From the NCBI RefSeq assembly GCF_020092905.1, contig NZ_JAGSGB010000001.1, positions 930,001 to 994,000 of the forward strand: 64,000 nt of DNA, in the 5' to 3' direction. Origin of the DNA: Pacificimonas aurantium (GTDB taxonomy: Bacteria > Pseudomonadota > Alphaproteobacteria > Sphingomonadales > Sphingomonadaceae). Under the pieces are notes generated by a model. That model had not been told where the DNA came from. It did not search any database and was given only the letters and a program-made list of their open reading frames with translations. A program made the position numbers and the translations under genes. Below, piece after piece: positions 49,143 to 54,366 of this stretch (within the stretch, counting starts at the first letter, position 1; every line of letters starts with the position of its first letter).

Positions 49143-49976
49143 ATGGCCGCGCGTGCAGTATGGAAGGGTCAGATCCGTCTGGCGCTGGTGTCGATCCCCG
49201 TGGAACTCTACCCGGCAGCGAAGAGCGGCGCCTCGATCTCCTTTCGCCAGATCCACGAGCCGACCGGCAAGCCGATCCGCTATGAAAAGGTGGTGCCGGG
49301 CGTCGGACCGGTCGATCGCGACGAAATCCTGAAGGGTTATGAATATGAAAAGGGCAGCTATGTCCTTCTGAGCCCGGAGGAAATCGACGCCGTAAAGCTG
49401 GAATCGAAGCGCACGCTGGAACTGACGCAGTTCGTCGAACTGGGCGAGATTCCGGTTTTTTATTTCGAGAAGCCCTATTTCGTCGCACCGCAGGACGAGC
49501 TTGCCGAGGAAGCCTATACGGTTTTGCGGGACGCCTTGAAGGCGAGCGGCAAGGTAGGCCTGGGCCAGCTTGCCATGCGCGGCAAGGAGACGCTGGTGAG
49601 CGTGCGTGCCTGCGGACGCGGTCTGGTCATCGAAACGCTGCGTTATGCCGATGAAGTGCGGAATGCCGAAAGCTATTTCGCCAGCATATCCGATGACGAG
49701 CCGCAGGAGGAGCTGCTCGAGCTTGCCGAGACGCTTATCGAGAAGAAGACTGCACCGTTCGACGCGAAGGCGTTCGAAGACCGCTACGCCGAGGCGCTGC
49801 ACGACCTGATCGACAAGAAGCTTCAGTCGAAAAGCGGTAAGGTCGATCTGGAAGAGGGCGAAGAGGCACCTGCTTCGCGCGGGAATGTGGTCGACCTGAT
49901 GGCGGCCCTGAAACAGTCTGTCGAAGGCGGCGAGAAACCGAAACGCAGCCGCAAGAAAAAGGCGGCCAGTGGCTAG
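49143..49976 (+). CDS. ku: Ku non-homologous end-joining protein
   Basis: 277 residues. Bacterial Ku core (MAARAVWKGQIRLALVSIPV, FYFEKPYFVAPQ) with a basic C-terminal tail (KPKRSRKKKAAS) as used to recruit LigD. It binds DNA ends. The longer upstream frame has no similarity. Overlaps ligD by 8 bases, with the ligD GTG inside its last codons. Confidence 0.94.
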   Translation: MAARAVWKGQIRLALVSIPVELYPAAKSGASISFRQIHEPTGKPIRYEKVVPGVGPVDRDEILKGYEYEKGSYVLLSPEEIDAVKLESKRTLELTQFVELGEIPVFYFEKPYFVAPQDELAEEAYTVLRDALKASGKVGLGQLAMRGKETLVSVRACGRGLVIETLRYADEVRNAESYFASISDDEPQEELLELAETLIEKKTAPFDAKAFEDRYAEALHDLIDKKLQSKSGKVDLEEGEEAPASRGNVVDLMAALKQSVEGGEKPKRSRKKKAASG

Positions 49977-51441
49977 GCGCAAAGATAGTTCCGATCCGCT
50001 GGCGGAATATAACTCCAAGCGCGACTTCACCAGGACTGCCGAGCCGGCGGGTGAAGCCGGAGAGGCGGGCAGCCGCATCTTCATGGTGCAGAAGCACGAT
50101 GCGACGCGCCTCCACTACGACCTGAGACTGGAAAAGGACGGCGTCCTGAAGAGCTGGGCCGTTACAAAGGGGCCGTCGCTGGACCCCGACGACAAGCGCC
50201 TCGCGGTCCAGACCGAAGATCACCCCATGAGCTACGCCACGTTCGAGGGGACGATTCCGAAGGCGGAATATGGCGGCGGCACCGTCATGCTGTGGGACCG
50301 GGGGACCTGGAAGCCGATCGAAGGCAAGAGCGAGAACGATCTGGACGAGGGACATCTTCACTTCTGCCTCGATGGCGAGCGCATGAAGGGGGAATGGCTG
50401 CTCGTGCGCATGAAGCGGCGCAAGGGCGAGAAGCGCGACAACTGGCTGCTGCGCAAGCTGGACGACGAGCACAAGGGCAGCAGCGAGGGACTGACCGGCC
50501 GCTACCTGACCAGCGTCGAGACCGGGCGCACCATGGAAGAGATTGCCGAAGGCGCCGAACCGGCTGGCGGTAATAACGAGACGGAAAGCCACCGGCCGCT
50601 GCCAAAATATGAATCGCCGCAGCTCGCCACTCTAGCCGATGCCGTCCCGCCGGGTGACGACTGGTTGCACGAGATGAAATATGACGGCTACCGCGCCTTG
50701 GTGGCCGCTGCGGACGGTGAAGTCCGCATCTTCACGCGCAACGGCAAGGACTGGACGGAAAAATTCCCCGCCGTGGTTCACGCCGTAACGGCTGCCGGGC
50801 TCGGGACCGCGCTTCTCGATGGCGAATTGGTCGTCTTGGACGAGGACGGGCGTCCGAGTTTCCAGGGGCTGCAGCAGGCGCTCGACGGATCGAAGGCAGC
50901 AGAGAACGTCGTCTATTTCGCCTTCGACCTGCTGCGACAGGGCGGCCGCGATCTGAAAAGCCAGACGAATGCGGAACGCAAGGCACGGCTTGCCGCGCTG
51001 ATTCCCCAAAACTTCGGGGCGCTCCGCTACTCGGACCATGTTCTGGGCAAGGGCGAGGCGCTGTTCGACGCCATGTGCGAGCAGGGTCTGGAAGGCATCA
51101 TCTCGAAACGGGCGGATGCCCCCTACCGCGGCAAGAGATCACGTAACTGGCTGAAGGTGAAATGCACACGGCGCCAGGATTTCGTCATCGTCGGCTGGTC
51201 GAAAAGTTCGAAGGCGGGACGGCCGTTCGCGTCGCTGCTTTTGGCCCAGCATGACGACGGCGATCTCGTCTATCGCGGAAAGGTCGGTACGGGGTTCGAC
51301 CAGGAACGATGGAGGACCTCGCAGGCAAAATGCGCCGGCTGGAGCGAAAGACCGCACCGCTGGACGTGCCGAAGAGCGCCGGGAAGGGGGCGCAGTGGCT
51401 CACCCCCAAGCTGGTTGCGGAAGTCGCCTTCGCGGAACTGA
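49969..51441 (+). pseudogene. ligD: LigD, 3'-phosphoesterase and ligase part (frameshifted)
   Basis: 490 codons, the first 447 in the LigD frame. Phosphoesterase domain at about 35-165 with HDATRLHYDLRLE (H43, H49, D51); ATP-dependent ligase domain from about 210 with nucleophile K237 in MKYDGYRAL. In the OB-fold the reading frame is lost at 51307-51310: the sense frame continues from the ATG at 51309, one base back, and the remaining 43 codons here are out of frame. One base looks deleted. GTG start inside the end of ku. The ligase core is probably intact but lacks its OB end. Confidence 0.85.
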
Positions 51442-52412
51442 CAGGGGAGGGCGTGACGCGCCACGCCAGCTTCCTCGGTCTGCGCGCCGACAAGGATGCC
51501 GAAGATGTCGAGAGCGAGCGGGCCGTTGACGCGGAGAAGGTCGCGAACGCTCCTGCCGTGAAGATTTCGAGCGCGGAGCGCGTCGTCTTTCCGGATGCGG
51601 GTGTGACCAAGGGTGAACTGGCCGACTATGTTCGTGGCGCTGCGCCCATGATGCTGCCCTGGGCGGCAAAGCGGCCGATCAGTCTGGTCCGCTGCCCGCA
51701 GGGGCGCCAAAAACAATGCTTCTTCCAAAAGCACGACCCCGGCAGTTTCGGTCCGCATGTCCACGCTGTTCCCATCGTGGAGAAGGACGGCGACAAACAG
51801 GACTATCTCTATGTCGAAACCGCTGAAGGCCTGCTGGCCTGCGTGCAGATGGGCACGATCGAATTTCATGGATGGGGTGCGCGCATCGCGGATGTGGAAA
51901 AGCCCGACAGGCTGGTCATCGACCTCGATCCCGACGAAGGGTTGGACTTCGCCGACGTCCGGAAAGCGGCCTTGGAGGTTAGGGATCATCTCGCCGATAC
52001 CGGCCTGGTCAGCTTCCCGCTGCTGACGGGCGGCAAGGGCGTTCATATCGTCGCGCCGTTGACGCCCTCAGCCGAATGGCCGGAGGTGAAGGACTTTGCG
52101 AGCCGCTTTGCGCGCGCGATCGCGCAGGCAGAGCCGGACCGGTTTACGGCCACCATGTCGAAGGCGAAGCGAAAGGGCCGTATCTTCATCGACTGGTTGA
52201 GAAACCAGCGCGGATCGACTGCAATTCTCCCCTACAGCCCGCGCGCAAGGGCAGGGGCACCGGTGGCGGCACCGATCTCCTGGAACGAACTTAAGGATCA
52301 TAAAAGCGGCGCCACATTTTCCGTCAACGACCTGGACCGCCTCAAGCGGCGCGCAGCCTCGGCTGCGCTCGAGGGCTGGGGCGAAGCCGATCAGCGGCTT
52401 CCGGAATTGTAG
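51309..52412 (+). pseudogene. ligD: LigD, polymerase part (frameshifted continuation)
   Basis: 367 codons. The first 50 are the end of the ligase OB-fold (MEDLAGKMRRLERKTAPLDV). The primase-polymerase domain follows from about 85 with catalytic D205 and D207 (VIDLDPDEG), PHVHAVP and FPLLTGGKGVHIVAP. Together with the preceding frame this restores a normal phosphoesterase-ligase-polymerase LigD of about 814 residues. Translation might restart at this ATG (AGGA three bases before it), giving a separate polymerase, but this site is poor. Confidence 0.85.
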
Positions 52413-52422
52413 GAAAGGCCCG

Positions 52423-54240
52423 TCAGGCTGCGCCGCTCGACTTTCGCGGTACGTCGAACGGCATCTCGGCGCAGTAGACCCGGTTTCGTCCTGCCGCCTT
52501 TGCTGCGTAGAGCGCTTCATCCGCAGCGCGCAGGACCGTATCCTGATTGTCGCCGCGGCATAGCTGTCGCAGACCGAAGCTTGCCGACACGGAAATGGGC
52601 ACGCCGTCCTCGTCCAGGATATCCAGACCGTGGAGCTTGCGTCGCACGCGGTCGCACACGCGGGCGGCCTCTTCCAGACCCGCACCGGTCAGGATGAGCG
52701 CAAATTCTTCGCCGCCGATGCGGGCAAGCAGATCTCCGCTTCGCTTTTGCAATGTGACGGTGGCGGCAACGGTCTTCAGTACCTCGTCTCCCGAAGCGTG
52801 CCCATGCCGGTCGTTGATCTGCTTGAAATGGTCGAGGTCGAAAAGCGCCAGCGTCGCGGGACTGGTAGCCGGGAGATTCTGCAGCAGCTGTCCCATCTTC
52901 TCCGTGAAGGCACGGCGGTTCGGAATCTGCGTCAGAGGGTCGGTCTGCACCAGCTTCGACAGCATTTGCTGCGCCTCGCGATGATCGCTGATGTCGCGTA
53001 TCGAGCCGACGAGCGTCTTCCCGCCGTCCTTATGTTCAACCGCCCGCGCGATCATCTCCAGATAGATTCGTTCGCCATCGGCGCGGTCGAACGCCTGCTC
53101 CAGCGACACATCCCGGCCCGGGGCCCTCAGAGCGGAGGTCATGGCAGACTTTGCACGGCCGCGATCTTTCCTTGGGAAAAACAGCAGGAAGGACCGGCCA
53201 AGCATACGGTCGCTTTCGATACCGGTAAGATTTCCCATGGCAGGCGAAGCGTATGTGACGCGCCCCGATTCGGAGAGACGCAGCGTGCCGTCGGCGGAAT
53301 GACTGGCCATCATCCGGAAGTGCGACTCGTTTTCCTCCGCACGGCGCAGGAGCGAGCGGACAGTCTTGAGAGCGGCCGAGACGGGCAGGGCGGTAAGGAA
53401 CGTGACCGCTAGGAACAGCTGGAGGACATGAACCTGGATCGGTGAGGAGACACCCAGTGCGGCGATCGGACCGACACCGATCAGGGTCGTGGTCGTCCCG
53501 ATGGCGGCGACGATCACCAGGGCGACAGACGCGCCCACCCTGCCGGCGACGAGCGTGGCGAACACCATCGGCAGCACAGCCACGAACAGCAGCGGAAAGG
53601 GCTGCAGGAAGACGAGAAGAGCGAACAGCGAAAGCGCAACGAACGCCACAAGGGCGTCCACATATTCGCGCCGGGTGCTCGTCCTGAACCAGTCGGCAAC
53701 CTCTCCGCGCCATAGCATGATCGCGAGCGGCATAACGATGAGAGTGCCTAGCCCATGACCGGCCGCCCAGCGGAACCAGCTGTCGAAGAAGGGCTGATCG
53801 GTGAAGGGTACGGTAACGAACGCTGCCGGTACTGCGATTGCACTTGGAACGAGTACGCCCGCGACAAAGGTGAAAACGACGACGCCGCCGACCGTCTCCA
53901 GAAAGTCCATGCGCGGCCGCAGCCGTCGCAGCAGTTCGGCCGTGAGGACGCATTCGAGAGGGGCAAGGGGTGCAAGAAGCGCCGAAACGGTGGGATGGAT
54001 ACCGAAAAGTGCGGATGCGATGCAGATGGCGATGAACGCGGCGCCGACATGCATCCAGCGTTCCCTCGCCGGCAGGGTCAGAAGAGCCGCCACGACGACG
54101 CCGTTCGTCAGCCATACGATCGCGAGACCGCCATTCACGCGCGACAAGGCGAGCGTGGCGGCGGAAAGTCCGAAATAGACCGCAAAGCCGATGGCTGCGC
54201 GTACGAACGCCGAATTGTTCGGACTGGCCGGGGGGCCCAT
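52423..54240 (-). CDS. MASE1-PAS-GGDEF diguanylate cyclase
   Basis: 605 residues. An N-terminal MASE1-type sensor with about eight membrane helices (residues 10-290), a PAS domain (about 300-420; TYASPAMGNLTGIESDRMLG), and a GGDEF domain with active-site GGEEF near residue 508 and FDLDHFKQINDRHGH. An RSGD inhibitory site lies five residues before GGEEF, so product inhibition is expected. It makes cyclic di-GMP. No EAL domain. GGGAG site before the ATG at 54240; a longer frame upstream is rejected. Confidence 0.93.
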   Translation of the reverse strand: MGPPASPNNSAFVRAAIGFAVYFGLSAATLALSRVNGGLAIVWLTNGVVVAALLTLPARERWMHVGAAFIAICIASALFGIHPTVSALLAPLAPLECVLTAELLRRLRPRMDFLETVGGVVVFTFVAGVLVPSAIAVPAAFVTVPFTDQPFFDSWFRWAAGHGLGTLIVMPLAIMLWRGEVADWFRTSTRREYVDALVAFVALSLFALLVFLQPFPLLFVAVLPMVFATLVAGRVGASVALVIVAAIGTTTTLIGVGPIAALGVSSPIQVHVLQLFLAVTFLTALPVSAALKTVRSLLRRAEENESHFRMMASHSADGTLRLSESGRVTYASPAMGNLTGIESDRMLGRSFLLFFPRKDRGRAKSAMTSALRAPGRDVSLEQAFDRADGERIYLEMIARAVEHKDGGKTLVGSIRDISDHREAQQMLSKLVQTDPLTQIPNRRAFTEKMGQLLQNLPATSPATLALFDLDHFKQINDRHGHASGDEVLKTVAATVTLQKRSGDLLARIGGEEFALILTGAGLEEAARVCDRVRRKLHGLDILDEDGVPISVSASFGLRQLCRGDNQDTVLRAADEALYAAKAAGRNRVYCAEMPFDVPRKSSGAA

Positions 54241-54366
54241 GCGGAAATACTCCCTCGGGACCGCGCCTCTCGGGCACGGCCCTTTCCAAAACATTCGCCC
54301 CGATTCTTGACCCCGTGCGCCTTGTGGCATTTCGTCCGGCACCCGTCCAGCACGCAGGATATGAAA

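Follow-up and report, generated by a model that had tools for sequence, protein, structure and literature searches.

We report that a marine bacterium of the genus Pacificimonas carries two ku-ligD pairs about 62 kb apart on the same contig, of which the upstream pair is intact and the downstream pair has a ligD gene divided between two reading frames by a one-base shift inside the OB region of the ligase. Most probably this is a real and very young break in a redundant native LigD, for which the intact and apparently acquired pair would substitute; the less likely alternative is an assembly error. Below, "the window" is the whole stretch of DNA that was analysed (64,000 nucleotides); positions without a contig name refer to it, C1 is the contig that carries it, and ORF1 and ORF2 are the first and second ligD fragments (Table 1).

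Genomes and searches

The genome (3,348,875 bases) was searched with the ligase and Ku families. Four Pacificimonas genomes, including the window genome, were searched for LigD, and 199 genomes of the family were sampled for matches to the ORF2 protein. The phylogenetic tree was computed with a quick method, with SH-aLRT as the only support measure, from 108 different ORF2-type sequences (134 rows before merging of identical ones); it was confined to matches of at least about 330 residues, with the intact copy's locus counted once.

Results

Table 1. Features of the two ku-ligD loci; window positions except where C1 is given.
Feature	Position	Strand	Basis or context
ku (277 aa), intact, by synteny and tree the native genus copy	49143..49976	+	TIGR02772, PF02735, identity to P. 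flava Ku
ORF1, first ligD fragment (490 aa, GTG start): phosphoesterase, ligase nucleotidyltransferase and start of OB	49969..51441	+	
Stretch holding the one-base gap relative to relatives	51300..51308	+	Alignment with other LigD genes
ORF2, second ligD fragment (367 aa, ATG start): remaining OB and polymerase	51309..52412	+	
Upstream ku (279 aa), intact	C1:915900		Directly before the intact ligD

The window ku-ligD locus

The two ligD ORFs lie on a common strand in different frames and together hold all three LigD domains (3'-phosphoesterase, ligase and polymerase), with the ligase divided over both. ORF1 covers the entire length of the LigD phosphoesterase model TIGR02777 and positions 1-236 of the 302 in the NHEJ ligase model TIGR02779, which continues in ORF2 (235-301), while the polymerase model TIGR02778 is matched by ORF2 over positions 1-244 of 245. 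The sequence-only reading had described a ligase part deprived of its OB end, and the Pfam ligase C-terminal (OB) model bears this out, being entered by ORF2 at position 34 of 94. Against the full LigD model, with its cut-off of 895, the halves score 552.6 and 372.2. KYDG at 50677 and WLKVK at 51148, which we take to be ligase motifs I and V, are found on ORF1, whose last 44 or so residues are out of frame; RADK at 51483, presumably motif VI, is on ORF2, as is the DLDP of the polymerase domain at 51921. Hence neither a single chain of about 820-845 aa nor one uniting the nucleotidyltransferase motifs with motif VI of the OB domain is encoded, and with two ORFs in two frames the locus as sequenced amounts to a broken gene for LigD and does not encode the enzyme. 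Adenylylation by the ligase requires motif VI; with this motif and most of the OB domain missing, no working ligase would be expected from the window locus.

The Ku upstream of the break was said to be intact and coupled to ligD, and we find both: it scores 305.2 bits against TIGR02772 (Ku_bact; NCBIfam cut-off 150), also matches PF02735, is 80% identical to the P. flava Ku, and the 3' end of its gene overlaps the GTG start of ligD.

Position of the break

In the DNA alignment of the junction a one-base gap appears in the window row alone and in none of the 11 other LigD rows (9 different sequences, since L012/L044 and L013/L045 are each one gene), which include the intact second LigD of the window's own genome. 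Throughout the 240 bases around the junction all 11 are open in one frame without a stop. The earlier reading had proposed a one-base frameshift within the OB-fold near 51307-51310; ORFs, family models and alignment agree on such a split, and the alignment puts the gap at about 51300-51308, a position that is less clean when only 4 rows are aligned. Since both halves match one and the same P. flava protein (844 aa, 75-79% identity), the split pattern is beyond chance. Relative to 1vs0, the 310-residue ligase chain of M. tuberculosis LigD, a structure-based alignment puts the break between residues 237 and 248, and the OB domain acts as a lid on the ATP pocket and binds nicked DNA, as described in PMC8656161. 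Within the 132-base overlap the window differs from P. flava at 6, 7 and 22 sites on codon positions 1, 2 and 3 of the ORF2 frame, a pattern indicating that the overlap has changed in the manner of a normal LigD coding stretch, which the tail of ORF1 is not.

The window pair as the native copy

Among the four Pacificimonas genomes, P. flava JLT2015 and the metagenome-assembled genome UBA3612 each have one LigD, intact and window-like (an 845-aa open frame and 80% identity over ORF2 in the former; an 825-aa open frame and 73% over ORF2 in the latter), and no LigD was found by this search in the remaining genome, G002. The window pair is syntenic with that of P. flava over 13 kb, on both flanks, and the tree places the window copy with P. 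flava (SH-aLRT 99) and UBA3612 (98). Synteny and tree together mark the window ku-ligD as the pair that this genus has inherited vertically. Between ligD and groEL, at 52423-54342, lies a reverse-strand gene ending in what by eye is a GGDEF-like domain; its place is occupied in P. flava by a 284-aa ORF unrelated to it.

Selection and age of the lesion

The numbers of unique amino-acid changes in the window genome and P. flava were 23 and 29 for ORF1, 22 and 28 for ORF2, and 23 and 14 for Ku, and for none of the three was there a significant excess of change on the window branch. The dN/dS values relative to P. flava were 0.16, 0.10 and 0.09 (ORF1, ORF2 and Ku), with dS above 1 and thus near saturation in this comparison. 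The window ligD has a single lesion and no further stops. Purifying selection without excess change leaves two options, a lesion of very recent date or an assembly error, and an old pseudogene is rejected for the lack of excess change on the window branch. The gene does combine a disabling lesion with intact relatives, and its genome also has an intact copy of apparently foreign origin; relaxed selection and further lesions were not found, and we use the label pseudogene provisionally.

The second, intact ku-ligD pair

The sequence-only reading implied a bacterium in which the broken LigD would be the sole copy, and this implication does not stand: the genome has three places with ATP-dependent ligases and two ku genes. 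The intact upstream LigD comprises 842 aa and scores 939.9 bits against the full LigD model, above its cut-off of 895, and the third ligase is of the "cisplatin damage response" type.

The intact LigD groups with that of Erythrobacter sp. PW10 (87% protein identity; SH-aLRT 97 in a four-row set). At the DNA level the intact ku-ligD matches an Erythrobacter sp. PW10 contig at 84.3% identity over 3.43 kb, i.e. over the two genes and little beyond. The surroundings, C1:895-930 kb, find hardly any counterpart in the portion of P. flava contig C3 compared, its initial 316 kb, with which synteny resumes from 930.4 kb onward. About 47 bases past the intact ligD stop begins a 5-kb segment (C1:919317-924318; L006, L147) that matches two P. 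flava contig ends, at 99.1% and 88.5% identity, its right boundary being set by contig ends; it encodes a hydrolase, an EmrAB-TolC-like efflux set and what by eye is a thioesterase-like ORF. Syntenic pieces of the two genomes are roughly 66-89% identical in DNA, far under the 99.1% of this segment. Taken together, the tree, the DNA match limited to ku-ligD, the non-syntenic surroundings and the 99.1% segment make the intact pair look acquired and the region around it look recently exchanged, and its affinities point to an Erythrobacteraceae-like donor. A plasmid source was considered and rejected, as no near-identical plasmid copy was found and the best place matched at 76% over 72% of the query.

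Discussion

Our preferred explanation is that the native ligD was recently divided by the deletion of one base within its OB region. Ribosomes starting at the coupled GTG would then make the phosphoesterase and the nucleotidyltransferase, lacking motif VI and the greater part of the OB domain; the polymerase frame is still open, but any translation of it would be hypothetical. The loss would have been tolerated because of the intact upstream pair; acquisition probably came first and the deletion afterwards.

This sequence of events requires that the missing base is real, which we hold to be probable. The main rival, unlikely but with some evidence in its favour, is a sequencing or assembly error, in which case the native LigD is whole and the organism has two working ku-ligD pairs. 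Full constraint on both halves, a single lesion without other stops and the concentration of the overlap differences at third positions of the original frame speak for an error. Against it, the nearest homopolymer is a run of four G at 51291-51294 and no base occurs three or more times in a row within 51300-51308, a mild argument against the commonest type of error; moreover, a redundant gene is where a real loss would be expected. Another gene split by one base, again with no homopolymer at the break, was seen at about 766.4 kb on C1 (L161), so assembly errors are possible in this genome; it encodes a membrane protein containing the sequence MIPHHSIAI, presumably DUF305-like, and is an intact 175-aa ORF in P. 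flava. A homology screen of a small sample, 81 P. flava ORFs with matches in 339 kb of the window genome, gave two that are split here, which favours error, but this is not clearly above the three of 85 in the reverse direction, of which at least one is an extended-start artefact. A codon-usage scan for frameshifts gave mostly noise, with 51 candidates in 339 kb of the window genome and 71 in the 316 kb scanned of P. flava.

That the split is functional, with the phosphoesterase fragment and a polymerase made from its own start codon acting in trans with the acquired LigD, is improbable. Both terminal domains are complete, a spacer of 3 bases separates the ATG at 51309 from an AGGA ahead of it, the family has polymerase-type frames that stand alone and measure about 300-350 aa (G016, G112 and G189), and stand-alone LigD-type domains are described from Streptomyces coelicolor and Archaeoglobus fulgidus in PMC1378119. 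However, the cut is inside the OB domain rather than at a domain border, the spacing of the start signal is tight, and none of the 11 aligned LigD rows is split at this site. Stop-start coupling is also inapplicable, since ORF1 stops about 130 bases past the start of ORF2. Even less credible is a mixed system caught in mid-replacement, in which selection has pared the native pair down to Ku, a phosphoesterase fragment and a polymerase fragment serving as accessories to the acquired LigD. Programmed -1 frameshifting joining the two frames can practically be dismissed: as the sequence-only reading had noted, the usable overlap has no perfect X XXY YYZ heptamer, the one weak A_AAG-type tetramer is at 51345 whereas agreement with the relatives demands a switch at about 51300-51308, and these relatives encode LigD with no shift at all.

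Should the deletion be real, as we favour, the locus would offer a fresh snapshot of an acquired ku-ligD rendering the native pair dispensable, and with both pairs in one genome the cooperation of a native Ku with a foreign LigD would become testable. If the base is an error, the importance is limited to a correction of the annotation. Taken by itself, the window break is an ordinary case, of little interest unless the cell turns out to use the fragments.

The window locus agrees in its full set of domains, their order, its motifs and the adjacency of ku and ligD with the Pseudomonas aeruginosa PA2138-type LigD, for which PMC1378119 gives the order phosphoesterase-ligase-polymerase, but differs in that its frame is broken within the OB domain. 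Multiple copies and transfer of NHEJ genes are already known: PMC7719229 reports several POL domains in 37% of the NHEJ-positive bacteria, and exchange across clades. The two pairs described here, one apparently transferred, are of this kind, but with the difference that the native copy is broken; the main text of that paper contains no word beginning with "pseudogen-". The literature searches made here turned up no case of a broken LigD next to an acquired one, though as negative evidence this is weak.

Within the family, the ORF2 protein has a match in 116 of the 199 sampled genomes. Two or more matches were seen in 18 of the 199 (at separate places in 17 of these), so that two copies are uncommon but not rare. 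Broken LigD genes also recur, a point in favour of a real break. In one genome (L179, G171:C7:12500-17500), which has another LigD place elsewhere, a LigD without phosphoesterase has an in-frame stop in the nucleotidyltransferase, with OB and polymerase open. In another (L180, G038:C1:507500-512500) a ku-ligD is heavily decayed, with shifted frames and with the OB and early polymerase stretch lost.
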